Program-made: the position numbers and the translations under genes
Notes under the pieces: model-generated
What the model was told of the DNA's origin: nothing
What the model saw: the letters and a program-made list of their open reading frames with translations, nothing else
The model's database searches: none
Part shown: positions 7,970 through 30,279 of the stretch, piece by piece
Numbering within the stretch: the stretch's first letter is position 1
How the letters are laid out: each line of letters begins with the position of its first letter
Source of the DNA: Buttiauxella gaviniae ATCC 51604
GTDB lineage: Bacteria; Pseudomonadota; Gammaproteobacteria; Enterobacterales; Enterobacteriaceae
Direction of reading: 5' to 3'
Assembly: GCF_001654835.1 (NCBI RefSeq)
Contig: NZ_LXEP01000028.1
Location: 62,001-126,000 of the forward strand
Length of the DNA: 64,000 bases

Positions 7970-7971
7970 TA

Positions 7972-9884: not shown

Positions 9885-10243
9885 GATGTTTCCTCTCAAA
9901 ACTTATTCTTTTGATATGGCACACCATACTGCCATCGTATGTCGAAGTGTTCCTGACAAAGTTTGATCACTCGTGATAAATGCCTGAGAAGCATAATATT
10001 TTCGCTAGTGGTTTTCTCTGCGGTCGGTGTGTAGTTGAACGAACCTGTTCCCAGTATCGGGCCGTCATTTCAATCGATTTATGAGCGGCACTAGTTTGAA
10101 ATCGACAGCCAACGGCATTTTGGTCGAAAGGGCAGGGAATCGCTAAAGAGAAATGGTCTGTTTTGACGTTAGAAGCAGAGAAGTGACCTTGGAGGCGACG
10201 AGTAATCGAACGCAGTTCGATGGAGAGTCCGAATCCCAGAAAG
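9885..10243. other. Intergenic region left of tRNA-Phe
   Basis: About 360 bases with no convincing open frame. Near its right end (10215-10231) is a segment reading GTTCGAT-3-GAGTCCG, which resembles the T-arm of the adjacent tRNA-Phe but in opposite orientation. No integrase, insertion sequence or direct repeat of the tRNA 3' end is visible. Confidence 0.4.
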
Positions 10244-10270
10244 CAAAAAACCAGCCCTTAGGCTGGTTTC
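10244..10270 (-). terminator. Terminator of tRNA-Phe
   Basis: On the reverse strand, an 8-base stem (AACCAGCC/GGCTGGTT) with a 4-base loop is followed by a T-run. It ends transcription 10 bases after the tRNA. Confidence 0.9.
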
Positions 10271-10279
10271 TTTAAATAG

Positions 10280-10355
10280 TGGTGCCCGGACTCGGAATCG
10301 AACCAAGGACACGGGGATTTTCAATCCCCTGCTCTACCGACTGAGCTATCCGGGC
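10280..10355 (-). tRNA. pheV: tRNA-Phe (GAA)
   Basis: A 76-base tRNA on the reverse strand, with encoded CCA end, acceptor stem GCCCGGA/TCCGGGC, D-loop AGCTCAGTCGGTAGAGC and anticodon GAA in the loop TTGAAAA. The T-arm is GGTTCGATTCC. It is identical in style to E. coli pheV/pheU and, as with pheV, lies next to speC. Its 3' end, a well-known integration target for islands, faces the accessory region at 3.5-9.9 kb. Confidence 0.97.
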
Positions 10356-10365
10356 AACGGGGCGC

Positions 10366-10394
10366 ATTAAACCGTAAAGGCCGTTTGGCGTCAA
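10366..10394 (-). promoter_or_regulatory. Promoter of tRNA-Phe
   Basis: On the reverse strand: -35 TTGACG (10394-10389), 17-base spacer, -10 TTTAAT (10371-10366), then a GC-rich discriminator (GCGCCCC). That discriminator is characteristic of stringently controlled stable-RNA promoters. Confidence 0.87.
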
Positions 10395-10528
10395 CGCTTT
10401 TGTGTTAATAAGCCGTGCGTTTGCACGAATAATGTGCTCTGCGTGGCAACTCGGGTTGAACGACAGGGCAGAAGGTGCCATGATTGTGCGAAATTTCACA
10501 CATCTGCAACGGGGCGTTTATTGATGTT

Positions 10529-10727
10529 TATACCCGTCATACTTCAAGTTGCGGATGCGTTGGCAGCGTTCACTCACCCGATAAATCTGCTCTCGCAGAT
10601 TTAAACGCTGCTAGCAGCGGCCCGAAGGGGGAGGCCCATGAATGGGCCGAATAATCACTTACAACAGTAAGCTCATCGGGATTCGTTCTCTTGCCGCCTT
10701 CCCGCAACTCGAATTATTTTGGGTATA
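10529..10727. repeat. ERIC element with internal insertion (199 bp)
   Basis: The ends are the inverted TATACCC...GGGTATA termini with the CATACTTCAAG and CAACTCGAATTATTTT arms of an ERIC. The usual central sequence (CACTCACCC ... ATCACTTAC ... GTAAGCTC) is interrupted by about 74 bp at 10580-10653. That insert contains its own hairpin (AAATCTGC/GCAGATTT) and a GGCCC-rich palindrome. Removing it leaves 125 bp, the length of the uninterrupted copy at 18388. ERICs with roughly 70-bp inserts are known in enterobacteria. Confidence 0.88.
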
Positions 10728-10751
10728 TAGTCAATGATTTCCAGCATCTCG

Positions 10752-10985
10752 ATGGCGCTCGTTCACCTTTCTACTATATCCCGAAGACCCTTGCTCACCA
10801 TGCGGTGAGGGCAACGCATGCTCACTGCAGGACATCAGTAAAATTAGGCAATGCCTGGTTTTACTGATGTCTGGCGGTCGGAGTGGGTATCATCCTTCAG
10901 ACCATCAAGACACATTCGCCGGGGAATGCTCCCTTTGCTGTGCCATAAGGCACTCACTCATCCTTGGCCTCTGGGATTTGTGCAT
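10752..10985 (+). promoter_or_regulatory. Structured speC leader with a possible upstream peptide
   Basis: A 234-base stretch before speC with several inverted repeats: CTCACC/GGTGAG at 10794-10809, a 13-base perfect repeat with arms 10831-10843 and 10859-10871, and GTGCC/GGCAC at 10940-10953. The GGTGAG arm can alternatively pair with CTCAC at 10821-10825, so exclusive folds are possible. A small frame, ATG at 10752 to TGA at 10808 (18 codons, MALVHLSTISRRPLLTMR), ends inside the first hairpin. The speC frame is open upstream to 10851. Leader control of speC is inference. Confidence 0.45.
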
Positions 10986-13124
10986 ATGAAATCTTTAAAA
11001 ATTGCCGCCAGCCACGATGTGGTTGCAACTCTGTCCACGCATCGTGAAGTGGTTGCGCTTGATAGCACAGACTTCACCGATATTGCCGCTGTTGTTCTTT
11101 CTGAAGCCGATAGCCGCAGCGGTATTCTTGCGTTGCTTAAACGGACTGGTTTTTCGATACCCGTTTTTCTAGCGGCTGATACCTGCTCAGGCGAGCAGGA
11201 AGGTATTACGGGGTTGATCACCGGCAAAGCTCAGGACTATCTGGAGCTTGAAACCGCTGCTGTAGATTATGAAGAAAGCTTGCTCCCTCCGTTTTTCGAT
11301 ACATTGACGAAATATGTCGCGATGGAAAACAGCACTTTTGCCTGTCCTGGTCACCAACATGGTGAGTTTTTTAAAAAGCATCCAGCAGGGCGCCAGTTTT
11401 ATGATTTCTTCGGTGAGAATCTATTCCGCGCTGATATGTGCAATGCGGACGTTAAACTCGGGGATTTGCTGATCCATGAAGGGTCGGCCAAACATGCGCA
11501 GAAGTTTGCCGCCAAAGTATTTAATGCCGATAAAACTTACTTTGTTTTAAACGGTACCTCGGCTGCAAATAAAGTCGTGACCAATGCGTTGCTGACTCGT
11601 GGCGATTTGGTCCTATTCGATCGCAATAACCATAAATCAAACCATCACGGTGCATTGATTCAGGCGGGGGCCACGCCGGTATATCTGGAGGCATCTCGCA
11701 ACCCATTTGGTTTTATCGGCGGAATCGATGCGCACTGCTTTGATGAAAAGTATCTGCGTGAATTGATTGCAGAAGTTGCACCAGAACGTGCTCAGCAAAA
11801 ACGCCCGTTCCGCCTTGCAATTATCCAGCTCGGTACTTATGACGGCACGGTTTATAACGCACGCCAGGTAGTGGATAACATCGGCCATCTTTGCGATTAC
11901 ATTCTGTTTGATTCAGCTTGGGTCGGTTATGAGCAATTCATCCCGATGATGGCTGATTGCTCGCCGTTGTTATTGGATCTTAATGAAAATGATCCTGGCA
12001 TTTTTGTTACGCAATCAGTGCATAAACAGCAGGCTGGATTCTCGCAAACTTCGCAGATCCACAAGAAAGATAACCACCTCCGTGGGCAGGATCGTTTTTG
12101 CCCGCATAAGCGGTTGAACAATGCTTTCATGCTGCATGCTTCAACCAGCCCGTTCTACCCGCTGTTTGCGGCACTCGACGTGAATGCGAAAATTCACGAA
12201 GGGGAGAGCGGCCGCCGTTTGTGGGCTGAGTGTGTCGATCTGGGGATTGAAGCGCGTAAAGCGATCATCGCTAACTGCAAGATGATCAAACCGTTTATTC
12301 CTCCGGTAGTTGCGGGCAGGCCGTGGCAGGATCACCCAACGACAGCAATTGCCCAGGAACGCTGTTTCTTTAGCTTTGAGCCGGGTGAAAAGTGGCATGG
12401 TTTTGAAGGCTATGCGCAGGATGAATACTTTGTCGATCCTTGCAAGCTGCTGCTGACTACGCCGGGGATCGATCCGCAAACTGGGCAATATACGGACTTC
12501 GGTGTACCTGCGGCGATTCTCGCAAACTACCTGCGTGAAAACGGTATTGTCCCCGAAAAAGCAGATCTCAACTCGATTCTATTCCTGCTCACGCCTGCGG
12601 AAAGCGCGGAGAAGATGGCTCATTTGGTAGCGATGCTGGCGCAATTTGAACAGCATATTGAAGACGATACGCCGCTGGTGGATGTGTTGCCGACGATCTA
12701 TCAGAAGTATTCCCAACGCTATAAAGGCTACACGCTGCGTCAACTTTGCCAGGAGATGCACGATCTGTACGTCAGTTTTGAAGTGAAGGATCTGCAAAAA
12801 GCGATGTTCCGCAAAGCCAGTTTCCCTGCCGTTGCCATGAACCCGCAGGATGCCAACAGCGAGTTTATTCGCGGCAATGTGGAACTGGTACGCCTGAGTC
12901 AGTCAGAAGGGCGTATTGCAGCGGAGGGAGCGTTACCGTACCCGCCGGGCGTGCTTTGTGTGGTGCCAGGCGAAGTCTGGGGCAGTGCCGCGTTGCGTTA
13001 TTTCCTGGCGCTTGAAGAGGGCGTGAATATGCTACCGGGCTTCTCGCCGGAGTTGCAGGGCGTGTATAGCGAAACGGATGCTGATGGAATTAAGCGTTTG
13101 TACGGTTATATGATTCAGGCGTAA
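10986..13124 (+). CDS. speC: Constitutive ornithine decarboxylase
   Basis: PLP-dependent decarboxylase converting ornithine to putrescine, the entry to polyamine synthesis. The 712-residue product matches E. coli SpeC (711 aa) through domains in order: N-terminal wing/response-regulator-like domain (1-~105), PLP domain with FACPGHQHG, and the PLP lysine in VTQSVHKQQAGFSQTS. The C-terminal domain ends PGFSPELQGVYSETDADGIKRLYGY. I chose ATG 10986 because MKSLKIAAS aligns with the E. coli start. The frame is open 45 codons further upstream, but that part overlaps leader hairpins. It is preceded by the structured leader and followed by a bidirectional terminator shared with nupG. Confidence 0.97.
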   Translation: MKSLKIAASHDVVATLSTHREVVALDSTDFTDIAAVVLSEADSRSGILALLKRTGFSIPVFLAADTCSGEQEGITGLITGKAQDYLELETAAVDYEESLLPPFFDTLTKYVAMENSTFACPGHQHGEFFKKHPAGRQFYDFFGENLFRADMCNADVKLGDLLIHEGSAKHAQKFAAKVFNADKTYFVLNGTSAANKVVTNALLTRGDLVLFDRNNHKSNHHGALIQAGATPVYLEASRNPFGFIGGIDAHCFDEKYLRELIAEVAPERAQQKRPFRLAIIQLGTYDGTVYNARQVVDNIGHLCDYILFDSAWVGYEQFIPMMADCSPLLLDLNENDPGIFVTQSVHKQQAGFSQTSQIHKKDNHLRGQDRFCPHKRLNNAFMLHASTSPFYPLFAALDVNAKIHEGESGRRLWAECVDLGIEARKAIIANCKMIKPFIPPVVAGRPWQDHPTTAIAQERCFFSFEPGEKWHGFEGYAQDEYFVDPCKLLLTTPGIDPQTGQYTDFGVPAAILANYLRENGIVPEKADLNSILFLLTPAESAEKMAHLVAMLAQFEQHIEDDTPLVDVLPTIYQKYSQRYKGYTLRQLCQEMHDLYVSFEVKDLQKAMFRKASFPAVAMNPQDANSEFIRGNVELVRLSQSEGRIAAEGALPYPPGVLCVVPGEVWGSAALRYFLALEEGVNMLPGFSPELQGVYSETDADGIKRLYGYMIQA

Positions 13125-13128
13125 GAAC

Positions 13129-13163
13129 AATGTCTCCCGTTTCTGAATGAAACGGGAGACATT
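13129..13163. terminator. Bidirectional terminator between speC and nupG
   Basis: A perfect 14-base inverted repeat (13129-13142 with 13150-13163) and 7-base loop sits between the convergent stops of speC and nupG. Confidence 0.88.
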
Positions 13164-13168
13164 GATTA

Positions 13169-14422
13169 TCAGACTGCTGGCTGAACGGCCGCTGGCGTCC
13201 TGACATGTTTATATTTGAACAGTGCGACGAAGGCGAAGGCCAGCACCAGTGAATAACCGGCGAAAATCAGCCACACGCTTTGCCAGTCAGTAATACCTTG
13301 CAGCGTGAAGTGCTCTACCACTTTACCGCTGACAATCCCGCCCAGGATGCAACCAAAACCGTTTGTCATCATCAGGAACATGCCCTGTGCACTGGCACGG
13401 ATTTCTGGTCTCACCTCTTTTTCAACGAATACTGAACCGGAAATGTTGAAGAAGTCGAAGGCGCACCCGTAGACTATCATCGACATCACCAGTAATACGG
13501 TACCCATTGGTGATGGGTCGCCAAAGGCAAACAGACCAAAGCGCAGCATCCACGCTACGATGCTGATAAGCATCACGTTTTTAATGCCGTAACGAATCAG
13601 GAAGAACGGAATCGTCAGGATAAATACGGTTTCGGAAATCTGAGAAATCGACATCAGCACCGACGCGTGTTCGACGATAAAGCTGCTGGCGAACAGCGGG
13701 TTCTGGTCAAAGCTGTGCAGGAAGGTGTTACCGAACATATTGGTAATTTGCAGTTCGGCGCCCAACAGCATGGAGAAAATGAAGAAAATAGCCATGCGCT
13801 TGTTTTTGAATAACGCAAAAGCATCCAGGCCAAGCATTGAAGTCCAGCTCTGGTTTTTCTGCGCGTTGGCGACCGGGATGTGCGGCAGCGTCAGAGTGAA
13901 CAGCGCTAAAACGACGGACAGTGTTGCGCCGATATAAAGCTGCATATGGCTTAATTCAAAGCCTGAGAAGCTAACGCCCCACATGGCGAAGATAAAGCCA
14001 ATGGTTCCCCAGATACGAATTGGCGGGAAGTCCCTCACGATATCCATCCCCGCTGATTGCAGGCGATAGTAAGAGATGGTGTTCACCAACCCAAGCGTTG
14101 GCATATAGGCCAGAGAGTTCAGCAGAATGACGATAAACATCGCGCTTGGCGTTGTGACCTGTGCGGCGAAATACAAGGTTATGGCACCGACAATGTGGCA
14201 AGCCGCGTAGAGCCAGCGCGCACTAATCCATTTGTCCGCAATAATGCCGAGTGACGTCGGCATGAATACCGCAGCAATACCCAAAGAACTGTACACCGCG
14301 CCGATAGCTGCGCCATCGAACTTGAGGGTGACGAACATATAGGAGCCGAGCGTAGTGAGCCAACTCCCCCACAGGCAGAACTGCAGAAACGAAAGTATTT
14401 TTAGCTGCAGCTTAAGGTTCAT
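13169..14422 (-). CDS. nupG: Nucleoside:H+ symporter NupG
   Basis: Inner-membrane proton-coupled permease for purine and pyrimidine nucleosides (MFS-related NHS family). The 417 residues match E. coli NupG (418) with about 12 hydrophobic helices. Signature stretches include MNLKLQLKILSFLQFCLWGS, FPPIRIWGTIGFI and FDFFNISGSVFVEKE. The start at 14422 has a good ribosome site (GAGGAAA) and aligns with E. coli; the frame continues upstream to 14500 without support. E. coli nupG is controlled by CRP, CytR and DeoR, and a CRP-like site lies about 150 bases upstream here. Confidence 0.96.
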   Translation of the reverse strand: MNLKLQLKILSFLQFCLWGSWLTTLGSYMFVTLKFDGAAIGAVYSSLGIAAVFMPTSLGIIADKWISARWLYAACHIVGAITLYFAAQVTTPSAMFIVILLNSLAYMPTLGLVNTISYYRLQSAGMDIVRDFPPIRIWGTIGFIFAMWGVSFSGFELSHMQLYIGATLSVVLALFTLTLPHIPVANAQKNQSWTSMLGLDAFALFKNKRMAIFFIFSMLLGAELQITNMFGNTFLHSFDQNPLFASSFIVEHASVLMSISQISETVFILTIPFFLIRYGIKNVMLISIVAWMLRFGLFAFGDPSPMGTVLLVMSMIVYGCAFDFFNISGSVFVEKEVRPEIRASAQGMFLMMTNGFGCILGGIVSGKVVEHFTLQGITDWQSVWLIFAGYSLVLAFAFVALFKYKHVRTPAAVQPAV

Positions 14423-14573
14423 GTAAATTTCCTCACAGGATTTTGGTGTTGAATGTTTCATTTCTAACATATGACATGAAATATGTTGTGAAAGTAACAT
14501 TAGCAGTGCCGTGAAGTAATTTTTGGTACATTCAGCAAATAAATGAAAACATCCTCAAATTGCATTCGAAAAT

Positions 14574-14589
14574 AGTGATTTGGGTTACA
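14574..14589. promoter_or_regulatory. Possible CRP site upstream of nupG
   Basis: AGTGA-N6-TTACA matches the CRP core TGTGA-N6-TCACA at 8 of 10 positions, with A/T-rich flanks. It is about 150 bases before the nupG start. CRP control of nupG is known in E. coli; this exact site is inferred. Confidence 0.45.
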
Positions 14590-14630
14590 CTTTTTGCGCA
14601 ATCAGGCGATAAAACGGGAGAGGAGAGGGA

Positions 14631-14664
14631 TATCTCCCACCGTAGAAACGGCTGGTGGGAGATA
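14631..14664 (-). terminator. Hairpin after mltC
   Basis: A perfect 11-base inverted repeat (14631-14641 with 14654-14664), 16 bases downstream of the mltC stop on the reverse strand. The tail is pyrimidine-rich rather than pure T, so termination may be partial. Confidence 0.6.
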
Positions 14665-14680
14665 GGACAAGCATCAGAAG

Positions 14681-15757
14681 TTAGCGTCGGCGGTAACTCT
14701 TCTGTGCGGTATTCACTTTGTATAGATAGTTGCGTGATTCCGCTGAAGGGTGGCGTGTAGTAAGAGTCTGATACACATCGCCCGGATCCATACTGTTGAT
14801 AATGTTGTAGGCACGGTTCTTGTCGTTGTTGAACACGCGCAGAACACTACCCGCACCGCCATTATAAGCAGTTATCACAGCGTAGCGACGTGATGTTGGG
14901 TTATCAATTCCACTCAGGTAGCTGTTTTGCAGAATGGCCAGATAAGCAGTACCCGTATCGATATTGCTTTCAGGATCAAACAAATAGCTGCGGCTTGGCT
15001 TGCCCCATTTCCCCTGAGATTTAAATACATCAACCCCTGCACTATGCTGTACAACTTGCATCAAACCGAGCGCGTCGGCGTGGCTTACTGCGTAGGGGTT
15101 GAAGCTTGATTCCGTCTGCATAATGGCCAGAATCAACGATTCATCGACACCGTATTTCTTCGATGCTTTACGCACCATGCCGATATATTTATGTGCACGT
15201 TTATCAAGGTGGTTTGGTACCAGATTGATAGTCACGCTATAAACAATTTTAAGCCCGGTACTACGGCTTTTCAGGCGAGTTTGCAGCAGATAGTCAGCAA
15301 ATTTGGCAGCGCGACCTTCCCAACGAATTGCCTGGCCGGTGTTATCCACAACCTGGCCATACAGGAATGGTTGTTTGGAGATCAACACATCGTTGGCATC
15401 GGAATAAAGATCGATAGAACCAGGATCGTCACCCATCAGCAAAGTTGTAATGATCGCCTGGCGCAGGTGCGCCGCAGGATCGGTACCAGCAATGGTTTCA
15501 ATAGTAATCGTACCGTCGTCAAAGTTGATGTGGCTACGTGTCAGGTACTGGTCAGTATATTTTACGTAGTCTTTTGGACCCGCAATCAACACTTCCTTCA
15601 TACCCCAGATATTTTCGATGTTGTGAGCAAATTGCCCCATCAAAATATCAAAACCATTAGTGTCCTTAACAAAAGCTTCGTTATAGGAATCATCTTTTTT
15701 GCTCGAACAGGAGATGAGCAACGGGACAACCAGAGCTAGCGCGAGAAATTTTTTCAT
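14681..15757 (-). CDS. mltC: Membrane-bound lytic murein transglycosylase C
   Basis: Lipoprotein that cleaves peptidoglycan glycan strands to 1,6-anhydro products. A 358-residue product against 359 in E. coli. The signal peptide ends at lipobox LISC (Cys17) with Ser at +2, consistent with outer-membrane sorting. An MltC-specific N-terminal domain ([13 protein letters not shown]...) is followed by an SLT domain with catalytic Glu in [13 protein letters not shown], plus ALGLMQVV and [13 protein letters not shown]. It lies downstream of yggX, probably in the same transcript as mutY-yggX, as in E. coli. Confidence 0.96.
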
Positions 15758-15820
15758 CGTTCCGTGTATGCGTATGCTTGTGCTTGTTGGTTTGCATAAG
15801 GGCCGAAGGCCCTCGTATTT

Positions 15821-16093
15821 TTATTTTTCTGGCGGCGTGTAGCCTTCGATGTGGACTTCTTTGCCTTCGAACAGGAAATTGACCATTTCAGCTTCCAGCT
15901 CTTTGCGATGTTCTGGATTCATCATGCTCATTTTACGTTCGTTAATCAGCATGGTTTGCTTTGCCTGCCACAACGCCCACGCTTCTTTAGAGATTTCGTT
16001 ATAAATACGTTTGCCTAGTTCGCCTGGATAAAGTTGGAAATCCTGGCCTTCTGCGTCACGTTGTAGGTAAGTACAAAAAATAGTTCTGCTCAT
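15821..16093 (-). CDS. yggX: Fe(II)-trafficking / oxidative protection protein YggX
   Basis: Small cytosolic protein (90 residues) that protects Fe-S clusters from oxidants. It matches E. coli YggX along its length, with [19 protein letters not shown] including the redox-relevant Cys7 and the C-terminal [13 protein letters not shown]. Two adjacent ATGs exist. I chose the second (16093), which matches E. coli and is 5 bases from the ribosome site; the first overlaps the mutY stop. The MutY-YggX pairing joins two defences of Fe-S proteins and DNA against oxidation in one operon. Confidence 0.95.
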
Positions 16094-16095
16094 CA

Positions 16096-17181
16096 TTATT
16101 CCTCTTCAACGGCTCGGGCCGCTTTTACGACTACCGGCTCGGCGTGCAATTGCTGTAATAAACGCTCTACAGGGGCGGCCAGTCCTACGGACGGTGGCTG
16201 CGCTAAGTTATACCAGAGAGCTGTTCCTTCATCCATGCACCCACTAAATGAAGGCACTGGGAGCCATATTGGGACGATGTCCAAATGAAAGTGGCTGAAT
16301 GTATGGCGGAAGGCGGTTAATTGCGTGAGATTATCTGCTGGAATCTGGTGTTGCGCCAGCCAGTCGCGTAGTTCATTTTCGGTTTCGAATTGTGGGAAAC
16401 AGTACAAGCCACCCCACAGACCAACCGGTGGACGCTGGGCAAGTAGTACGCTGTCCTGGTGCTGCATCATCAATAAGTAGCCGGTGCGTTCCGGTATTGT
16501 AACTTTAGGCTTCTTACCTGGATAACTGGCCCAACTGTTATTGGCATAGGCCACGCAGATATTATTCACCGGGCAAAGTTCGCATTTTGGCTTCGAGCGG
16601 GTACAAACCATCGCTCCAAGATCCATCATTGCCTGGTTAAACTGGCTTACACCTTGCGCGGGCGTGACTTGCTCACTGATATCCCAAAGTTTCTTTTCAA
16701 CATCTTTTTTACCGGGCCAGCCTCCAATGGCATAACAACGTGCAAGCACGCGTTTTACGTTGCCATCGAGAATCGGGAAGTGTTTACCAAGCGACAGAGA
16801 AAGAATAGCGCCCGCAGTCGAGCGCCCAACACCTGGCAATGCGGCCACTTCTTCAAAGGTTTCTGGAAACACGCCCATGTGAAGATTCGCCACCATTTGA
16901 GCAGCTTTATGCAGGTTTCGGGCGCGAGCGTAATAACCCAGCCCAGTCCACAGGTGTAGCACTTCATCAAGGGGGGCGTTGGCGAGATCTGTGATAGTCG
17001 GGAAGCGCTCCATAAAACGCTCAAAGTAAGGAATGACCGTGGCAACTTGCGTTTGTTGCAACATCACCTCAGACAGCCATACTTTATAAGGCGTTTTTTC
17101 GAGTTGCCATGGCAGTGTTTTGCGCCCGTATTTTTGGTACCAGTCGAGAACCTGGTGGGAGAATTGCGGCGCATGTGTCAT
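16096..17181 (-). CDS. mutY: Adenine DNA glycosylase MutY
   Basis: Base-excision enzyme removing adenine paired with 8-oxoguanine. The 361 residues contain the catalytic Glu38 ([10 protein letters not shown]), a helix-hairpin-helix ([13 protein letters not shown]) with Asp139 in LDGNVKRVL, and a [4Fe-4S] loop with Cys193, Cys200, Cys203 and Cys209. The C-terminal Nudix-like domain senses 8-oxoG ([11 protein letters not shown]). The C-terminus is about 11 residues longer than in E. coli. It is divergent from trmB. It complements MutT (52.0 kb) and, in the nucleobase pool, perhaps the 8-oxoguanine deaminase at 6.6 kb. Confidence 0.97.
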
Positions 17182-17339
17182 TGTTACCCGGCATCCGATA
17201 AATAATAAGTGTGTGATTTAGGGGGCTGATTCCAGCACAGACGACTCTGTGCTGTAAACCGGAACTTTCTGGTGCTTGCTTCTCACCATTAACTTTGGAT
17301 AATGCCCGTTTCCCGAAAACTAACTTAAGCCTGAACACC

Positions 17340-18059
17340 ATGAAAAATGACGTCATCTCACCGGAATTTAATGAAGAAGGCCGCGCAATGCGCCGGATTC
17401 GTAGTTTTGTGCGCCGTCAGGGCCGCCTGACTAAGGGCCAGGAGTTCGCTCTGGAAAACTATTGGCCGGTGATGGGCGTTGAATATCAAGACGCGCCTGT
17501 TGATTTTACCGAGCTGTTTGGCCGCGAAGCGCCAGTCACGCTGGAAATCGGTTTCGGCATGGGTACGTCGCTGGTGGCAATGGCAAAGGCTAATCCACAG
17601 CAGAATTTTTTGGGCATAGAAGTGCATTCACCGGGTGTGGGTGCATGTCTCGCGACGGCTCACGAAGAAGGTGTCGAGAACCTGCGTGTGATGTGCCACG
17701 ATGCGGTCGAAGTGCTGCAAAAAATGGTTCCTGACAATTCTTTATCCATGGTTCAGCTCTTTTTCCCTGATCCGTGGCACAAAGCGCGTCATAATAAGCG
17801 CCGTATCGTTCAAGTGGCGTTTGCCGAGTTCGTGAAAAGCAAACTTAAACTGGGGGGTGTGTTCCATATGGCAACCGACTGGGAACCTTATGCGGAACAC
17901 ATGCTCGAAGTGATGTCCTCTATTGATGGTTATAAAAACCAGTCAGAGACTAACGACTACGTACCGCGCCCGGATTCACGTCCGGTGACCAAATTTGAAC
18001 AACGTGGCCATCGTCTTGGTCACGGCGTATGGGACTTAATGTTCGAGAGGGTAAAGTAA
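17340..18059 (+). CDS. trmB: tRNA (guanine-46-N7)-methyltransferase
   Basis: SAM-dependent enzyme that forms m7G46 in tRNA variable loops. The 239 residues equal E. coli TrmB. It shows the SAM-binding [15 protein letters not shown], then [14 protein letters not shown], the catalytic-site [16 protein letters not shown] and a C-terminal [20 protein letters not shown]. The start at 17340 gives [10 protein letters not shown] as in E. coli; the frame extends 15 codons upstream without support. yggL begins inside its stop codon (TAATG), so the two are translationally coupled. Confidence 0.97.
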
Positions 18060-18385
18060 TGGCAATTAATCGTAGCCGTCGTTTGCGTAAGAAAATGCAC
18101 ATCGACGAATTCCAGGAAGTGGGGTTCTCTGTTGCATGGCGTTTCCCAGAAGGCACCTCCGAAGAACAAATCGATAAAATCGTTGATGAATTCATCGATG
18201 AAGTTATCGATAAAAATGGTCTGGCTTTTGATGGCGGCGGCCACCTTTCCTGGGAAGGCTTAATCTGCCTGCAGGAAATCGGCAAATGTACCGAAGAGCA
18301 TCAGGCTCTGGTGCGCAAATGGCTTGAAGATCACAAGGCAGAAGACGTTCGCACTAGCGATCTGTTTGATGTCTGGTGGGATTGA
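18059..18385 (+). CDS. yggL: YggL family protein (DUF469)
   Basis: Small 108-residue cytosolic protein, almost identical to E. coli YggL, with a basic N-terminus (NRSRRLRKKMHIDEFQE) and a conserved core (GFSVAWRFPEGTSEEQID). In E. coli it associates with the 50S ribosome, and a ribosome-linked role is the reported view. It starts in a TAATG overlap with trmB. An ERIC element begins 2 bases after its stop, inside the trmB-yggL-yggN string. Confidence 0.95.
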   Translation: MAINRSRRLRKKMHIDEFQEVGFSVAWRFPEGTSEEQIDKIVDEFIDEVIDKNGLAFDGGGHLSWEGLICLQEIGKCTEEHQALVRKWLEDHKAEDVRTSDLFDVWWD

Positions 18386-18387
18386 TA

Positions 18388-18512
18388 TATACCCTAATCT
18401 TTCAAGCTGCACGTGCGTTGGCTTTCCTCGCTCACCCCAGTCACTTACTTAAGTAAGCTCCTGGGAATTCACTGCGTCGCCGCCTTCCTGCAACTCGAAA
18501 TCTGTGGGTATA
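18388..18512. repeat. ERIC element (125 bp, uninterrupted)
   Basis: A full-length ERIC with terminal TATACCC/GGGTATA. Its centre carries the classical segments matching the ERIC2 primer region (CGCTCACCCCAGTCACTTACT) and the ERIC1R region (TAAGCTCCTGGGAATTCAC). It follows the yggL stop by 2 bases, so it is probably transcribed into the yggL mRNA tail. Confidence 0.95.
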
Positions 18513-18524
18513 TGCAGAATAATC

Positions 18525-18552
18525 AGGTCGGTGAAAACCGGCCTTTTTTTTC
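18525..18552 (+). terminator. Terminator between yggL and yggN
   Basis: AGGTCGGT pairs with ACCGGCCT around a 3-base loop (one G-U pair), followed by eight Ts. It should end the trmB-yggL-ERIC transcript before yggN. Confidence 0.85.
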
Positions 18553-18580
18553 TTAAATTTTTAGATGTTCAGGAGTGACT

Positions 18581-19297
18581 ATGATTCGTAAGGCTTTGAT
18601 GGGCGTTCTGCTGCTAACTGCGATGCAGGCGCAGGCCGACTATAAATGCAGCGTCACGCCTCGCGATGACGTGGTAATCAACCCGCAATCCGTTCAGGTT
18701 GTTGGTGAGAATGGCAATCTGGTTATTGCCCCCGATGGCAGCCTGAAATTTAACGGCAAGCCACACACATTAAACGCAACGCAGCGCCAGTTGGCCCTGG
18801 ATTACCAGAAAGCGTTGCGCACCGATCTCCCTTGGATCAACAACGGTGCACTGACACGTGTTGAAAAGGGTCGTGTCGCGCTGGATAAAATCATCGCTAA
18901 AGAAGTGGGTGAGAGCAGCAATATGCGTGGCCGTCTGACTAAACTCGACGCGCAGCTTAAAGAGCAGATGAACCGTATTATTGAAACCCGCCCGGATGGT
19001 TTAACCTTCCACTATAAAGCGATTGATCAAGTGCGCTCCGAAGGGCAACAGTTGGTGAATCAGGCGATGGGCGGCATCTTGCAGGACAGCATTAACGAAA
19101 TGGGTGCTAAAGCGGTTCTGAAAGGTGGCGGCAATCCGCTGCAAGGCGTACTGGGAAGCCTTGGTGGCTTACAGACCTCGATTCAGAATGAGTGGAAAAA
19201 TCAGGAAAAAGATTTCGAGCAGTTTGGCCGCGATGTGTGTAGCAAAGTGGTGACGCTGGAAGGGCAACGTAAAGGGCTGGTTGAGACACTTAAGTAA
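18581..19297 (+). CDS. yggN: Exported YggN family protein (DUF2884)
   Basis: 238-residue periplasmic protein of unknown function that matches E. coli YggN. The signal peptide (MIRKALMGVLLLTAMQAQA) is cut before DYKCSVTPRDD. Conserved stretches include DGLTFHYKAIDQVR and NQAMGGILQDSINEMGAKAV. The ATG at 18581 follows AGGAG by 5 bases, so I prefer it to an in-frame GTG at 18575. Family members are annotated DUF2884; no enzyme motif is visible. Its stop codon touches the next ERIC element, beyond which synteny with E. coli switches to the leu region. Confidence 0.93.
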   Translation: MIRKALMGVLLLTAMQAQADYKCSVTPRDDVVINPQSVQVVGENGNLVIAPDGSLKFNGKPHTLNATQRQLALDYQKALRTDLPWINNGALTRVEKGRVALDKIIAKEVGESSNMRGRLTKLDAQLKEQMNRIIETRPDGLTFHYKAIDQVRSEGQQLVNQAMGGILQDSINEMGAKAVLKGGGNPLQGVLGSLGGLQTSIQNEWKNQEKDFEQFGRDVCSKVVTLEGQRKGLVETLK

Positions 19298-19422
19298 TAC
19301 CCTTCATACTTTAGGCTGACTCTTTGTTGGCTTCGTGCTCTCGCCCAGGTCACTTACTCATGTAAGCTCCCTGGGCCTCGAACACTTGCCGCCGCGATGC
19401 AGCTCGAATTATTTTGGGTATA
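19296..19422. repeat. ERIC element at the synteny junction (127 bp)
   Basis: An ERIC with recognisable CATACTTTAGGCTG and AGCTCGAATTATTTTGGGTATA ends and a central CCAGGTCACTTACTCATGTAAGCTCC. Its left end has drifted (ATACCC) and overlaps the yggN stop. It fills the space between the convergent yggN and leuD genes, which are far apart on the E. coli map. Confidence 0.93.
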
Positions 19423-19436
19423 AGACTTGCTGCTTA

Positions 19437-20042
19437 TTAACGCATAAACGCCGGTTGTTTCTGCTCGTAAGCTGAAATTGAACCTTCGTGCTGTAACGTC
19501 AGACCGATACTATCGAGCCCTTCTAACATGCAGTGGCGGCGGAAAGTATCGATATTAAACGAATAGCTTTTCTCACCCGCAATCACGGTTTGTGCTTCCA
19601 GGTCGACCACGAATTTAATCCCCGGATTTGCCGCGACCAGCTTAAACAGCTCATCGACTTCTGCTTCGCTCAGCGTCACCGGCAGCAACTGATTATTGAA
19701 TGAGTTGCCGTAGAAGATATCCGCAAAACTTGGCGCGATAACCACCTTGAAGCCGTAATCAGTTAATGCCCACGGCGCATGCTCACGCGAAGAACCACAG
19801 CCGAAGTTTTCACGTGCCAGTAAAATTGAAGCGCCTTTAAATTCCGGGAAGTTCAGCACGAACTCTGGGTTTGGCTGCTGGCCGGCATCATCCAGAAAAC
19901 GCCAGTCGTTAAACAAGTGAGCACCAAAACCAGTACGGGTCACCTTCTGCAAAAACTGCTTAGGAATAATTGCGTCGGTATCAACGTTTGCGGCATCCAG
20001 CGGAACGACCAGGCCGGTGTGTTGAATAAATTTCTCTGCCAT
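19437..20042 (-). CDS. leuD: 3-isopropylmalate dehydratase small subunit
   Basis: Swivel subunit of isopropylmalate isomerase (LeuCD), leucine synthesis step 2. The 201 residues equal E. coli LeuD, with [15 protein letters not shown] and the [13 protein letters not shown] substrate-binding loop. It is the last gene of leuABCD, 10 bases after leuC. No strong terminator is visible between its stop and the ERIC at 19296-19422, so the ERIC may lie in the leu mRNA 3' end. Confidence 0.97.
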
Positions 20043-20052
20043 GGTGTTTCCC

Positions 20053-21453
20053 TTATTTCAATGTACGGATGTCAGCAAAATGACCAGAAACAGCGGCGGC
20101 TGCTGCCATTGCCGGGCTAACCAGGTGTGTACGACCACCGCGGCCCTGACGGCCTTCAAAGTTACGGTTGCTGGTGGATGCACAGCGTTCACCCGGCTCC
20201 AGGCGGTCGTTGTTCATCGCCAGACACATGGAGCATCCAGGTAAGCGCCATTCAAAGCCAGCTTCAATAAAGATCTTATCCAGACCTTCTGCTTCGGCCT
20301 GCGCTTTGACCGGACCGGAACCTGGAACTACCAACGCCTGCACGCCTGGTGCAACTTTACGGCCTTTGGCAATTTCTGCCGCAGCGCGCAAATCTTCAAT
20401 GCGTGAGTTGGTGCATGAACCGATAAACACTTTATCGATAGCGACTTCGGTTAATGGAATGCCTGGTTTCAGGCCCATGTATGCCAGAGCTTTTTCAGCA
20501 GAGGCACGTTCAACCGGATCAGCGAAAGATTCAGGATTCGGGATGTTTTCGGTGACGGAAATGACCTGACCTGGGTTGGTGCCCCAGGTGACTTGCGGTG
20601 CAATGTCAGCAGCATCCAGGGTCACAATGCTGTCGAACTTAGCGCCTTCGTCAGTGCTAAAGGTTTTCCAGTAGGCGACGGCGTCATCCCAGCTTTCTGC
20701 TTTCGGTGCGTGCAGACGGCCTTTCACGTAGTTAAACGTGGTTTCGTCTGGTGCAACGATGCCCGCTTTGGCACCCATTTCGATTGCCATGTTGCACAAT
20801 GTCATGCGGCCTTCCATCGACAGCGCCTGAATCGCACTACCACAGAATTCCACTACATGACCGGTGCCACCCGCACTGCCGGTTTTGCCTATGATTGCCA
20901 GCACGATATCTTTCGCGGTAATGCCCGGTGCAGCGGTGCCAGTCACTTCAATCTTCATAGTTTTGGCGCGGCCCTGTTTCAGGGTTTGCGTTGCCAGAAC
21001 ATGTTCAACTTCCGAAGTACCGATACCGAACGCCAGTGCGCCAAATGCGCCGTGGGTTGCGGTGTGCGAGTCGCCACAAACGATGGTCATGCCAGGCAAA
21101 GTAATACCCTGCTCTGGGCCCATCACGTGGACGATGCCCTGGAACGGGTGGTTCAGGTCATATAATTCAACGCCGAACTCTTTGCAGTTTTTCATCAATT
21201 CCTGCATCTGAATGCGGGCCATTTCGCCGGAAGCGTTGATGTCTTTAGTCTGCGTAGAAACGTTGTGGTCCATGGTGGCAAATGTTTTACCTGGCTGACG
21301 CACCGGGCGCTTATGCGCACGCAAACCATCAAACGCCTGCGGGGAGGTCACTTCGTGCACCAGATGACGGTCGATGTACAACAGTGGTGTTTCATCGACT
21401 GCTTCGTAGACGACGTGGGCATCGTACAACTTTTGATATAACGTCTTCGCCAT
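20053..21453 (-). CDS. leuC: 3-isopropylmalate dehydratase large subunit
   Basis: Catalytic [4Fe-4S] subunit of isopropylmalate isomerase (2-isopropylmalate to 3-isopropylmalate). The 466 residues equal E. coli. Cluster-binding cysteines lie in FIGSCTNSR and in [10 protein letters not shown]. Aconitase-type substrate motifs are [14 protein letters not shown] and [13 protein letters not shown]. It begins 2 bases after the leuB stop, in the leuABCD operon transcribed leftward. Confidence 0.97.
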
Positions 21454-21455
21454 GA

Positions 21456-24120
<2,665 letters not shown>

Positions 24121-24161
24121 GTTGTGGTCCTTTCTCGTCTTAGGGGCCCTTGCTACGAGCA

Positions 24162-24192
24162 TAAAAAAACCCGCGCAGTGGCGCGGGTTTTT
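24162..24192 (-). terminator. leu operon attenuator
   Basis: On the reverse strand, ACCCGCGC pairs with GCGCGGGT around a 4-base loop and is followed by a run of seven Ts. It lies between leuL and leuA, 42 bases before the leuA ATG. Its position after a Leu-rich leader peptide is the classical transcription attenuation layout. Confidence 0.92.
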
Positions 24193-24209
24193 CTGTCTGA
24201 TGGCTTGAA

Positions 24210-24293
24210 TCAACGCTCGATTTCGCCCACCAGCCTACCGCGCAAAGAAGTTGCGTTTAGTAGTAGACCTAGTAGGCGAATGGTGCGAATCAT
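24210..24293 (-). CDS. leuL: leu operon leader peptide
   Basis: A 27-codon frame ending in TGA, upstream of the attenuator. It begins [19 protein letters not shown]. Five leucines at codons 7, 8, 10, 11 and 12 are all the rare codon CTA, so ribosome stalling should be very sensitive to charged tRNA-Leu(CUA). When leucine is short, stalling there would favour the antiterminator and expression of leuABCD. The frame was found by reading the sequence; its function follows from E. coli leuL (28 codons). Confidence 0.9.
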
Positions 24294-24328
24294 GTTTTCA
24301 AGCCCCAAGTGAATTCGTTATGCATTTA

Positions 24329-24357
24329 TTGGTACTTGATCTGCCCTGCTGTGTCAA
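24329..24357 (-). promoter_or_regulatory. Probable leuLABCD promoter
   Basis: On the reverse strand there is a perfect -35 (TTGACA, 24357-24352). Seventeen bases on, a weak -10 (TACCAA, 24334-24329) lies about 36 bases before the leuL start. The -35 is convincing; the -10 is tentative. Confidence 0.6.
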
Positions 24358-24961
24358 CAATCGATTCTCTCAGACACAGTTTTGGCGATAGTAAGGTGGG
24401 TGTGACGGTCAGTTATTTGTGCTGGTATATCAATTTTTCATAATATTTATAAAAGGTATGAAAAAGGACTGTTTACCGTTTTATGTAAAAATGAAATCGT
24501 CAGAAACAATTAAAAATAATATGTTTATTACCATCGTCATTCATCATAGTTATGATTTGCGAGGGTTAATCAAGGCAAGAATCCTATTTTAGGAATTTAT
24601 CTCCTTTCCTTATCACTCGATTCTCAGTAGAACTATTGTTTCCGACCAGCGATGTCATCCATGGTTGATATATAATTCAGTAGGTGAATCATTGTGCGAT
24701 AAGTCATTTTGTGATTTCATTAGCATGTTCAGGAAATCAACTGACACAAAAAAGTTATATACATCTTTATAGTTATACCAGACTTGTCAGTAGCTGAAGC
24801 CGTGTTGGCGTGTCAGGAAACGTGAATTAAAAATTTTAATTTTATTTTTAAATAATGTTTTCAATTGTATTGATCAGCATGTTCTGCTTAGCAAGTGATA
24901 ATAGGGATAGCCCGCAGAGTTAATCTGTGAAAAAGGACGAACCATCTTAGTGGAGTTTGCC
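24358..24961. other. AT-rich leuL-leuO intergenic region
   Basis: About 600 bases, strongly AT-rich with many A/T tracts, no coding frame and no repeat. In E. coli the same position carries the H-NS-silenced leuO promoter region, with LeuO autoregulation. The composition here fits H-NS binding, but individual sites cannot be assigned by eye. Confidence 0.6.
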
Positions 24962-25906
24962 ATGTCTGATAATTATGTAGAACAACCAACAGTTCATGAT
25001 GGGTTTAAACCTCAACTACGTTCTGTTGATTTAAATTTATTAACAGTATTTGATGCTGTTATGCAAGTGCAGAATATTACCCGTGCTGCTCAAACCCTGG
25101 GGATGTCTCAGCCCGCAGTGAGTAATGCGGTAGCTCGGTTGAAAATAATGTTCAATGATGAACTATTTGTACGTTATGGCCGAGGCATACAACCTACGGC
25201 TCGGGCCTTCCAACTGTTTGGCTCCATTCGCCAGGCATTGCAGCTGGTACAGAATGAGTTACCAGGAGCAGGTTTCGACCCGAGCAGCAGTGAAAGGGTG
25301 TTTAACATTTGTGTTAGCAGCCCTTTAGATAATTTTTTAACCTCTGTTATCTTTAATAATGTGAAACGCTTTGCGCCAGGTATTCAGTTACTCTTTAAAT
25401 CCTCTTTAAATAAAGATATTGAACACCAATTACGTTATCAGGAAACAGAGTTTGTTATTAGCTATTCTGAATTTCGTCGACCTGAGTTCACATGTATTCC
25501 ACTATTTGAAGATGAAATGGTTCTGGTGGCGAGTAAGAAAAATCCACGCTTAGTTAAACCATTAACTGAAGAAGACGTTTATAACGAAAAACATGCGGTT
25601 GTTTCTCTGGATCGCTTTGCATCATTCAGTGCACCATGGTACCCAACAGCAGATAAACTGGCCTGTATTGCTTATCAAGGGATGGCAATGATCAGCGTTT
25701 TAAATATTGTGTCGCAGACTCAACTGGTTGCGATAGCACCACGCTGGTTAGCTGAGGAGTTTTCTGACTCGCTGAATTTACAAACATTCACACTGCCGCT
25801 TAAAGAAAATACAGCTACTTGTTATTTATCGTGGCATGAAGCAGCAGGGCGCGATAAAGGGCATCAATGGATGGAAAAATTACTGACTACAGTGTGCAGT
25901 AAGTAG
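24962..25906 (+). CDS. leuO: LysR-family regulator LeuO
   Basis: DNA-binding regulator that antagonises H-NS and controls leu, bgl, cas and other stress genes. 314 residues as in E. coli LeuO. The N-terminal winged helix-turn-helix is [17 protein letters not shown]...[19 protein letters not shown], and the C-terminal effector domain is conserved to [17 protein letters not shown]. The ATG at 24962 has GGAG 6 bases upstream; an in-frame GTG four codons earlier is less likely. Unlike E. coli, the N-terminal tail is poor in Pro and Glu. It sits between leuLABCD (divergent) and ilvIH. Confidence 0.96.
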
Positions 25907-25930
25907 ATTTAGAATCCTTGTCTGAGTAAT

Positions 25931-25966
25931 CCGGATGGTTAAAACTATCCGGTTATCCTTCTTTTA
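25931..25966 (+). terminator. Terminator of leuO
   Basis: CCGGAT pairs with ATCCGG at 25931-25952, extended by two inner pairs, followed by a pyrimidine- and T-rich tail (CCTTCTTTT). It lies 24 bases after the leuO stop. Confidence 0.75.
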
Positions 25967-26317
25967 TTAGCCTTTGTAGTTTTTTCTTCTTTAGTTGTTT
26001 TTGTGCTTTCTCTCCAGAACATATGATAAATCGTCCGCTAATTAGATTTATCCTGCAAAGCCATTATCCATAATATTTTCATTCATAGTTTCCGCTTATG
26101 GTCAGAGCATAACTCTGTCAGTAGAGGGTTTTGTAGTGTTCGTAAGAAAATCCTTGTTTGAGACTTGAAGATTGGCAATTGATTGCCTGATTTTCAACGG
26201 TTATGTTAGGCAACTATCAATAATAAAAAGACATATGCAGGGCGCAATAACCTGCCTCAACGACTTAGCTGAAATGATTTCGGTGGTCGGTCAAACACGT
26301 AAGCCTGGAGGCAAACC
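25967..26317. other. leuO-ilvI intergenic region, probable Lrp-responsive promoter
   Basis: About 350 bases, AT-rich, without coding frames. In E. coli the region upstream of ilvI holds several Lrp sites activating ilvIH. The A/T composition and position fit, but I cannot place Lrp boxes reliably. Confidence 0.5.
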
Positions 26318-28042
26318 ATGGAGATGTTGTCAGGAGCCGAGATGGTCGTCCGATCGCTTATCGATCAGGGCGTTAAACATGTATTCGGTTACCCAGGAGG
26401 CGCAGTACTCGATATCTATGATGCGCTTCATACTATTGGCGGCATTGATCACGTGCTGGTACGCCATGAACAAGCGGCAGTGCATATGGCTGATGGCCTG
26501 GCACGTGCAACCGGTGAAGTGGGGGTCGTGCTGGTGACATCCGGTCCCGGTGCTACAAACGCAATCACCGGCATTGCTACGGCTTACATGGACTCCATTC
26601 CAATGGTGGTGCTTTCTGGTCAGGTTGCAACATCGCTGATTGGCTATGATGCATTCCAGGAATGCGACATGGTGGGGATTTCTCGCCCGGTCGTGAAACA
26701 CAGCTTTTTAGTCAAACAAGCAGAAGACATTCCTGGCATCATCAAGAAAGCCTTCTGGCTTGCAGCAAGTGGCCGCCCAGGTCCGGTTGTGGTCGATTTG
26801 CCAAAAGACATTATGAGTCCGGCAAATAAGTTCCCTTATAGTTATCCCGAAACCGTCAGTATGCGTTCTTATAACCCGACCACTCAAGGTCACAAGGGGC
26901 AGATTAAGCGCGCATTGCAAACCTTGCTGGCGGCGAAAAAGCCGGTCATGTATGTCGGTGGCGGTGCGATCACTTCTGCCTGTCATGATGAACTGCTTGA
27001 ACTAGCCCAGAAGCTGAATATTCCGGTCGTATCCTCGTTAATGGGTCTTGGTGTGTTTCCAGGGACTCATCGGCAGGCTTTAGGCATGCTGGGGATGCAC
27101 GGAACCTACGAAGCTAACATGGTGATGCACAACTCCGACGTGATTTTCGGGGTAGGTGTGCGCTTTGATGACCGTACCACCAACAATCTCGCGAAGTACT
27201 GCCCGAATGCGACAGTGCTGCATATTGATATCGACCCAACTTCTATTTCTAAAACGGTCGGTGCGGATATTCCTATTGTTGGCGATGCGCGTCAGGTTTT
27301 ACAGCAAATGTTGGAGCTGATGGCGCAGGAAGATACGTCGCAGTCCTGCGATGATATCCGTGACTGGTGGCAACAGATTGAGCAATGGCGTGCGCGCCAG
27401 TGTCTGGAGTTTGACAGAACAAGCGATAAGATTAAGCCACAGGCGGTTATTGAAACTATCTATCGTCTGACCAAGGGTGAGGCTTACGTCACCTCTGATG
27501 TCGGTCAGCACCAAATGTTTGCTGCACTTTATTACACCTTTGATAAACCTCGCCGTTGGATTAACTCTGGCGGCCTCGGCACTATGGGCTTTGGTTTGCC
27601 AGCCGCACTGGGTGTGAAGCTGGCATTGCCAGACGAGACCGTGGTTTGCGTTACGGGTGATGGCAGTATTCAAATGAATATCCAGGAACTCTCTACCGCG
27701 CTGCAATATGGTTTGCCGGTATTGGTGCTTAACCTCAACAACCGCTATCTCGGTATGGTGAAACAGTGGCAGGACATGATTTATTCTGGCCGCCATTCTC
27801 AATCCTATATGGAGTCGTTACCTGATTTTGTGCGCGTTGCGGAAGCTTATGGGCATGTAGGGATCAACATTAACGAGCCGCATGAGCTGGAAAGCAAGTT
27901 GATCGAAGCGCTGGAGGCCGTGCGTAACCAGCGTCTGGTATTCGTCGACGTCGCAGTTGATGGCACTGAGCATGTGTACCCGATGCAGATCCGTGGCGGT
28001 GGTATGGATGAGATGTGGTTAAGCAAAACGGAGAGAACCTGA
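26318..28042 (+). CDS. ilvI: Acetolactate synthase III large subunit
   Basis: Catalytic subunit of AHAS III, a TPP- and FAD-dependent enzyme forming acetolactate or acetohydroxybutyrate for valine, leucine and isoleucine. 574 residues, equal to E. coli. Motifs include [14 protein letters not shown] with the catalytic Glu in [22 protein letters not shown] (FAD region) and the TPP motif [15 protein letters not shown]...[19 protein letters not shown] precedes the ATG. The ilvH ATG follows the stop by 2 bases. It supplies keto acid precursor to the divergent leu genes. Confidence 0.98.
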
Positions 28043-28044
28043 TT

Positions 28045-28536
28045 ATGCGCCGGATATTATCTGTATTACTCGAAAATGAGTCCGGGGCGCTGTCCCGTGT
28101 AATAGGCTTATTTGCTCAGCGCGGTTACAACATTGAAAGTCTGACCGTGGCTCCAACTGACGATCCCACACTATCTCGCATGACTATCCAAACGGTTGGT
28201 GATGCGAAAGTGCTGGAGCAGATTGAAAAGCAGCTGCATAAACTAGTGGATGTCCTGCGTGTCAGCGAACTGGTGCAAGGGGCGCATGTCGAGCGTGAAA
28301 TCATGCTGGTAAAAGTGCAGGCGAGTGGTTACGGGCGTGAAGAAGTGAAGCGCAACGCGGAAATCTTCCGTGGGCAAATCATTGATGTCACACCAACGCT
28401 CTACACGGTTCAACTGGCAGGGACTAGCGACAAACTGGACGCATTCCTGAATACCATTCGTGAAGTGGCTAAGATTGTCGAAGTAGCACGCTCAGGTATT
28501 GTAGGCGTATCGCGTGGCGATAAGATTATGCGCTAG
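28045..28536 (+). CDS. ilvH: Acetolactate synthase III regulatory subunit
   Basis: Valine-sensing small subunit that activates IlvI. 163 residues as in E. coli, with an N-terminal ACT domain ([30 protein letters not shown]) and a C-terminal domain ([20 protein letters not shown]). The frame extends upstream into ilvI; the ATG at 28045 matches E. coli and follows the ilvI stop by 2 bases. A strong terminator ends the ilvIH operon. Confidence 0.97.
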
Positions 28537-28558
28537 CCTGTAATGGCGGCTAAATAAT

Positions 28559-28592
28559 AAACCCGGTAAAACACGTACCGGGTTTTTTTTTG
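28559..28592 (+). terminator. Terminator of ilvIH
   Basis: ACCCGGTA (28561-28568) pairs perfectly with TACCGGGT (28576-28583), followed by eight more Ts. Confidence 0.94.
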
Positions 28593-28710
28593 CAAATAGC
28601 GCAGCAACTGCCAGCAAAAGCGGTTGCCCGAGGTATTATTCTGCGCTTAGATGATAAAAATGAAACCATGACCAGGGTATGGTTATGGAAATCCTAAATA
28701 AGGGGCTACT

Positions 28711-29715
28711 GTGAAATTGGATGAAATCGCGCGCCTGGCTGGAGTTTCGCGCACTACGGCGAGCTACGTCATCAACGGTAAGGCAAAACAGTATCGCGTT
28801 AGCGATAAGACCGTTGAGAAAGTCATGGCAGTTGTACGCGAACATAACTATCACCCGAATGCTGTGGCTGCAGGATTGCGTGCCGGGCGCACGCGTTCTA
28901 TCGGATTAGTTATTCCAGATCTTGAAAACACAAGCTATACCCGTATCGCCAACTATCTGGAGCGCCAGGCTCGTCAGCGTGGATATCAGTTGCTTATCGC
29001 ATGCTCGGAAGATCAGCCTGACAATGAAATGCGTTGTATTGAGCACCTGCTACAACGCCAGGTTGATGCGATCATTGTTTCAACGTCACTGCCACCTGAA
29101 CATCCATTCTATCAACGCTGGGCGAACGATCCTTTTCCCATCATCGCGCTCGATCGTGCATTAGATCGCGAAAATTTCATAAGCGTAGTCGGTGCAGACC
29201 AGGAAGATGCGGAAATGCTGGCCAGTGAGCTGCGTACTTTCCCTGCAGAAACGGTTCTTTATCTTGGCGCGTTGCCGGAGCTGTCAGTGAGCTACTTGCG
29301 CGAACAAGGTTTCCGTACCGCGTGGAAAGATGATCCACGTGAAGTGCACTTCTTATATGCCAACAGTTATGAGCGTGAAGCCGCAGCGCAGCTTTTTGAT
29401 AAGTGGTTGGAAACGCACCCAATGCCACAGGCGCTTTATACCACCTCATTTGCATTATTGCAGGGTGTGATGGATGTAACTTTACGACGTGAAGGTCATT
29501 TGCCGTCAGAACTGGCTATTGCCACTTTCGGGGACAATGAATTGCTCGATTTCCTGCAATGTCCAGTATTGGCTGTTGCGCAGCGCCACCGTGATGTAGC
29601 GGAACGAGTACTGGAATTGGTATTGGCAAGCCTCGATGAGCCACGTAAACCTAAGCCTGGATTAACCCGTATTCGTCGTAATCTATATCGTCGTGGCAGT
29701 TTAAGTCGGCACTAA
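28711..29715 (+). CDS. cra: Catabolite repressor/activator Cra (FruR)
   Basis: LacI-family global regulator of carbon flow that senses fructose-1-phosphate or fructose-1,6-bisphosphate. It activates gluconeogenic genes and represses glycolytic and fru genes. 334 residues as in E. coli. The N-terminal helix-turn-helix is [23 protein letters not shown], the hinge contains [16 protein letters not shown], and a periplasmic-binding-protein-like core runs to [12 protein letters not shown]. The start codon is GTG. It is monocistronic, between the ilvIH terminator and the mraZ promoter region. Confidence 0.97.
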
Positions 29716-29721
29716 CAAGAG

Positions 29722-29750: not shown

Positions 29751-29755
29751 AGAAT

Positions 29756-30218: not shown

Positions 30219-30226
30219 CCTTTAGG

Positions 30227-30261: not shown

Positions 30262-30279
30262 TTTAAGGGTGAGGCTGGC

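Follow-up and report, generated by a model that had tools for sequence, protein, structure and literature searches.

An oriC-spanning inversion common to Buttiauxella joins yggN to leuD, and the ERIC element found there most likely came in afterwards

The window analyzed here, a stretch of 64,000 nucleotides from Buttiauxella gaviniae ATCC 51604 (G000:C28:62001-126000), belongs to a draft genome of 5.07 Mb in 133 contigs. Mapping of E. coli K-12 proteins on the window revealed two blocks, each in K-12 order, which meet between yggN and leuD:

1..19297, no strand: left block, with the K-12 gene order from metC to yggN, running away from oriC on the left arm
18393..18510, plus strand: second ERIC, between yggL and yggN, away from the join (model match)
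18575..19297, plus strand: yggN (K-12 3.101 Mb), which ends the left block, with the join directly 3' of its stop
19298..19421, plus strand: ERIC (subtype a) filling the yggN-leuD gap, a full-length match to a model that includes this copy
19437..20042, minus strand: leuD (K-12 0.0788 Mb), which opens the right block, with the join directly 3' of its stop
19437..57910, no strand: right block, with the K-12 gene order from leuD to hofB, running away from oriC on the right arm

The left block reads metC-exbB-exbD ... speC-nupG-mltC-mutY-trmB-yggL-yggN and the right block leuD-leuC-leuB-leuA-leuO-ilvIH-cra-mra/fts/mur-secA-mutT-coaE-guaC-hofCB. An earlier note, made from the letters of the window, had described a map running from metC to yggN and then upwards from leuD, and K-12 gene order bears this out, on the right side as far as hofB. 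The K-12 map likewise agrees with the neighbors that the note had named, ansB adjoining yggN (3.101 Mb) and setA adjoining leuD (0.0788 Mb). The stops of yggN (19297) and leuD (19437) lie on opposite strands, hence the two genes converge, and the 139 bp between the stops contain, as first described, a single full-length ERIC-like element (19298-19421). Among the matches listed, the best counterparts of the window's yggN in named genomes belonged to Buttiauxella (B. massiliensis 100%, B. agrestis 98%), and the best places found in a search against E. coli genomes match leuC-leuD only. The gene yggN is named in PMC7518454, and enterobacterial core gene order is the subject of PMC2615449. Further along the right block, the segment across the ftsA-ftsZ boundary (45892-45984) was matched by Rfam to PssrA, which is described as an sRNA of Shigella encoded on a plasmid.

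The element at the join is an intergenic, dispersed, imperfect palindrome of about 125 bp. The 2-kb stretch that holds both ERICs matches 44 other places of its genome and hence contains a dispersed repeat, and both strands of the element at 19298-19421 fold better than every one of 200 shuffled versions (z -4.1 and -5.7). We take it to be an ERIC from its presumed agreement with the ERIC consensus; an Rfam search returned no match at the yggN-leuD join. The second ERIC is followed by a terminator-like hairpin (18525-18544), but shuffled sequence also yields one such site. Two further ERIC-related sequences were observed in the window. At 10531-10726 an ERIC is interrupted by a 74-base internal insert, which by eye resembles, in reverse complement, the insert that the join ERIC of another Buttiauxella genome (G007) contains; a comparison on the forward strand alone was not above shuffles. 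Between coaE and guaC (54142-54207) lies a short ERIC remnant that has kept both ends and lost its middle.

The yggN-leuD join was recovered in 12 of 12 Buttiauxella genomes, and so was its reciprocal, hemW-setA, where the gap measures 39-155 bp. The window's own genome has the latter on another contig (G000:C15, L120), with 44 bp between the stops and no ERIC. A scan for YggN relatives found 190 coding stretches, of which 80 loci were kept. In 60 of these 80, hemW lies within about 10 kb of yggN, with or without ansB between them; neither hemW nor leuD is near yggN in 12, L051 and L081 being contig ends; and leuD follows yggN in 8, all labelled Buttiauxella. Since yggN-leuD is confined, among these 80, to loci labelled Buttiauxella, and other genera keep the parental order, it was rejected as the ancestral arrangement. 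Correspondingly, setA adjoins leuD in 18 of 18 other genomes examined, at 30-461 bp, with the exception of one locus at 2.3 kb (L145). A locus labelled uncultured Buttiauxella (L019), in which hemW stays near yggN, groups with Dryocola in both of our trees. Buttiauxella itself is monophyletic with support 1.0 in the protein tree, which was built from five genes and 100 tips, contains some weak backbone nodes (0.57, 0.34, 0.61) and omits g48. Gene order and trees together mark the Buttiauxella arrangement as derived relative to the outgroups.

The earlier note had also predicted a reciprocal join of ansB to setA, bearing an ERIC in inverse orientation. The reciprocal join does exist, but its partner is hemW: in the nearest outgroup loci (L016-L019) neither ansB nor yggM was found in the interval from yggN to hemW, so that hemW and not ansB is the gene expected there. 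An ERIC is lacking from the 44-bp gap of the window's genome; G008 and G009 are the two of the 12 genomes that have one at this join.

In K-12 the yggN end lies 825.0 kb and the setA|leuD point 794.6 kb from oriC. Distances from oriC were determined in three closed or nearly closed Buttiauxella genomes, in all of which the yggN and hemW joins lie on opposite sides of the origin, at 796.5 and 777.7 kb in G003 (ratio 0.976), 758.6 and 730.2 kb in G004 (0.963) and 787.5 and 779.7 kb in G009 (0.990). Reciprocal joins in all 12 genomes, placed on opposite sides of oriC in 3 of 3 with ratios of 0.96-0.99, support an inversion that spans oriC and is nearly symmetric, and in both respects the original proposal has held.

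We therefore regard as highly probable an oriC-spanning inversion between two convergent gaps in an ancestral Buttiauxella, with the present ERIC most likely a later insertion and not the substrate. Breaks would have fallen in the convergent yggN>...<hemW gap of the left arm and in the convergent setA>...<leuD gap of the right arm, and exchange of the two broken gaps would have given yggN>...<leuD and hemW>...<setA. The inversion would then have been fixed in the Buttiauxella ancestor, and the ERIC at the join would have arrived later in a non-coding gap where palindromic elements come and go. Such an event may have been tolerated because both gaps are 3'-to-3', which would spare promoters and operons, and because nearly symmetric endpoints would preserve arm length and replication direction.

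Some observations count against this explanation. The ERICs at both joins of G008 and G009 and the disagreement of the trees on the first branch of the genus are described below; in addition, the oriC core is turned in a way that one inversion of K-12 order would not produce. The orientation of yggN relative to mnmG, which stands beside oriC, is opposite to that of K-12 in all three Buttiauxella genomes (G003, G004, G009) and in 14 of 33 distinct genomes, among them the close outgroup G097 (34 handles were counted, G026 and G238 sharing coordinates). Mapping of the two segment ends and of the oriC region placed the oriC core turned relative to the arms. The difference between K-12 and Buttiauxella is more than one simple inversion; we infer at least two flips around oriC between them, the inner one being common in the family. 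The turned core in 14 of 33 genomes suggests that nested oriC flips are frequent in the family.

The yggN|hemW boundary has been reused: five further lineages carry reciprocal joins of yggN|hemW to points at 0.2-3.7 min (mutT, rluA, satP, yacL, hemL). Atlantibacter has yggN-mutT in 4 of 4 loci and hemW-secA in the 2 of 2 examined. A clade of the genera g76 and g140 and the loci labelled Enterobacter sp. kpr-6 and ENT03 has yggN-rluA and hemW-djlA in all of 5 genomes; in the kpr-6 and ENT03 loci yggN and rluA are separated by 1.3 and 4.7 kb. In g122, yggN-satP-dnaK and hemW-(one extra ORF)-mog-talB were found in 2 of 2 genomes, and the single genomes of g43 (G075) and g48 (G080) carry yggN-yacL with hemW-acnB and yggN-hemL with hemW-fhuB, respectively, the yggN of g48 being 59% identical to that of the window. 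In the protein tree the rearranged clades are separate (Buttiauxella, Atlantibacter and g122 each with support 1.0; g76+g140+kpr-6+ENT03 with 0.997). A locus labelled Citrobacter freundii M-21 (L021) has the Atlantibacter-type gene order and groups with Atlantibacter, and this label is probably wrong.

On the K-12 map the six right-hand points, mog|satP, djlA|rluA, setA|leuD, secA|mutT, acnB|yacL and fhuB|hemL, lie at about 9.9, 59, 79, 111, 134 and 173 kb, that is 726, 775, 795, 827, 850 and 889 kb from oriC, the last two distances following from the same arithmetic as the first four. Four of the points are convergent in K-12 (mog-satP, djlA-rluA with yabP and yabQ between, setA-leuD and fhuB-hemL), and secA-mutT and acnB-yacL are co-directional. 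The two joins lie on opposite sides of oriC at 700 and 649 kb in G108 (one contig) and, less symmetrically, at 860 and 742 kb in G266 (two contigs); the other reuse lineages are drafts, placed on opposite arms from the K-12 map only. These data incline us to the view that oriC-spanning inversions have repeatedly broken the chromosome at yggN|hemW (about 825 kb from oriC on the K-12 map), a point used independently by six Enterobacteriaceae lineages with six partners at 726-889 kb. If so, large flips in Enterobacteriaceae would reuse a few permissive, roughly symmetric sites. Inversions are better tolerated in non-structured regions of the nucleoid, and the endpoints may lie in or near such regions of the E. 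coli nucleoid.

Rearrangements of other kinds were also observed around these genes. In Shimwellia and Entomohabitans, fau adjoins yggN and ftsP adjoins hemW (L056, L078, L179; L167, L168, L180), as though the left arm had lost a block to another place. In g108 yggN stands beside yjiA-btsT and in Franconibacter beside other genes, hemW being next to ftsP in both. Eight distant genomes (G089, G100, G137, G146, G149, G183, G198, G239; loci L183-L190, L195-L202) have tas after yggN in 8 of 8 and lplT after hemW in 6 of 8. All of these arrangements need more than one inversion of K-12 order.

The reuse raises a tentative alternative, by which yggN|hemW is unusually breakable or replication-related and this property explains both the inversion and its recurrence. 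The reciprocal joins to six opposite-arm points in six lineages speak for it, as do at least 10 changes of the yggN neighbor on the 100-tip tree (neighbors labelled by the analyst). As a control we used hemW-metK, a pair about 11-12 kb apart in K-12 with several boundaries between; genes on different contigs were scored as apart, and part of each count consequently reflects contig ends. Among the 74 genomes whose yggN matched best (67-100% identity), yggN and hemW were apart in 22 and the control pair in 7 at a limit of 50 kb, but the control rises to 12 and 19 at limits of 25 and 15 kb, and several of the 74 come from one genus. In 131 genomes with all three genes among the matches listed, yggN-hemW was apart in 41 and hemW-metK in 36, 42 and 53 at 50, 25 and 15 kb, and in 36 closed-like genomes the numbers were 8 for yggN-hemW and 9 (50 kb) or 10 (25 kb) for the control. 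A raised break rate at yggN|hemW is not established, because the excess over the control varies with the genome set and the distance limit, and the gap may merely tolerate breaks better than others. For these counts yggN and hemW were searched separately, as a joined query gave hemW places only among the matches listed; 138 genomes had both genes among the matches listed, within 15 kb of each other in 97 and not in 41. Inspection of one side or both covered 20 of the 22 genomes scored as apart, in some cases through a locus of the same genome recognized by its identical coordinates; the other two are G184, whose yggN stands at the end of a contig, and G190.

The content of the gaps varies within the genus. 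The yggN-leuD gap carries ERIC-a in five of the 12 genomes (G000, G001, G002, G005, G006) and ERIC-b in three (G007, with an internal insert, G008 and G009); the four joins free of ERIC hold, as judged by eye, another palindromic repeat (G003, G004) or a hairpin only (G010, G011). ERIC-a copies are mutually 93-97% identical (93-95% between the window's copy and the four others), whereas ERIC-a and ERIC-b share 70-75% (G008 and G009 copies) or 77-79% (G007 copy), about as much as ERIC-a shares with the unrelated ERIC at 18393 (70-77%). Gaps were scanned with an ERIC model built from the copies found here, that of the window included. It matched 8 of 12 yggN-leuD joins and 2 of 12 hemW-setA joins (G008, G009), and, in other genomes, one yggN-hemW gap out of 68 (L035) and 0 of 19 setA-leuD gaps, with no match in the nearest-outgroup parental gaps (L016, L018, L019, L220; L145-L148).

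The inversion may have arisen between short palindromes other than ERIC (REP-like units or terminator hairpins) that the two convergent gaps had in common, an origin that we hold to be possible though doubtful. Repeats of this kind were seen by eye in the yggN-hemW gap of L016 and L018 and at both joins of G003 and G004; the name REP presumably applies to them. They are, however, short, diverged and as variable among species as the ERICs, no matching repeat was visible by eye in the setA-leuD gap of L016-L019, and no chimeric junction emerged.

Homologous recombination between two inverted ERICs, later lost or replaced in most lineages, appears unlikely. It is consistent with the ERICs in eight of 12 yggN-leuD gaps, the main match of all eight lying in one orientation, and with G008 and G009, the only two of the 12 genomes with an ERIC at both joins, whose pairs have the relative orientation expected after ERIC-ERIC recombination. 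The protein tree moreover places G008+G009 first in the genus, contrary to the DNA tree, in which G004, free of ERIC at both joins, branches first with 80% bootstrap (several nodes of this tree are weak, 39-80%); this disagreement on the first branch leaves room for an ancestral ERIC pair. Against such a pair stand the two subtypes at one join with 70-79% identity, the absence of ERIC from 10 of 12 reciprocal gaps, the hairpin-only gaps of G010 and G011 and the other repeats of G003 and G004, and the near absence of ERIC from parental gaps elsewhere (1/68 and 0/19). The mechanism put forward in the earlier note, recombination between inverted ERICs, thus finds no support for the element seen in the window: its own genome has no partner at the reciprocal join, two subtypes occupy the yggN-leuD join, 4 of 12 joins are ERIC-free, and parental gaps are nearly devoid of ERIC. 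The window's ERIC-a is hard to see as a recombination substrate. Finally, an assembly error, conceivable in a 133-contig draft, is practically discounted by the presence of both joins in all 12 assemblies of the genus, three of them closed or nearly closed.

What could be taken for an oddity of a draft contig hence becomes a rearrangement of the whole genus, known at both ends. It illustrates that the presence of a repeat exactly at a breakpoint does not make the repeat the cause of the break. A boundary reused across lineages further offers a handle on whether the location of breaks or selective tolerance lies behind the frequency of symmetric inversions. Among the papers listed in a literature search, none concerned the Buttiauxella inversion or a yggN/hemW breakpoint, which leaves absence from print unproven.

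Flips of the oriC region can be mediated by rrn operons; the Buttiauxella case resembles such flips in that the orientation of yggN relative to the oriC core is changed with respect to K-12 (14/33 genomes; 3/3 Buttiauxella). As for ERIC elements, whose copy numbers and occurrence at gene 3' ends are treated in passages of PMC10969869, the join copy is alike in its length of about 125 bp, its imperfect palindrome, its intergenic position and its many copies, and differs in being most likely a later arrival without a demonstrated role in the inversion. Symmetric inversions around oriC are described as over-represented or dominant, often with repeats at their ends, in the passages seen of PMC2483231, PMC9584773 and PMC5850607. 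The Buttiauxella inversion is like these inter-replichore events in its endpoints on opposite arms, their near-equal distance from oriC and the replication direction kept; it differs in being common to a whole genus and in that one of its endpoints recurs in the reciprocal joins of five other lineages.
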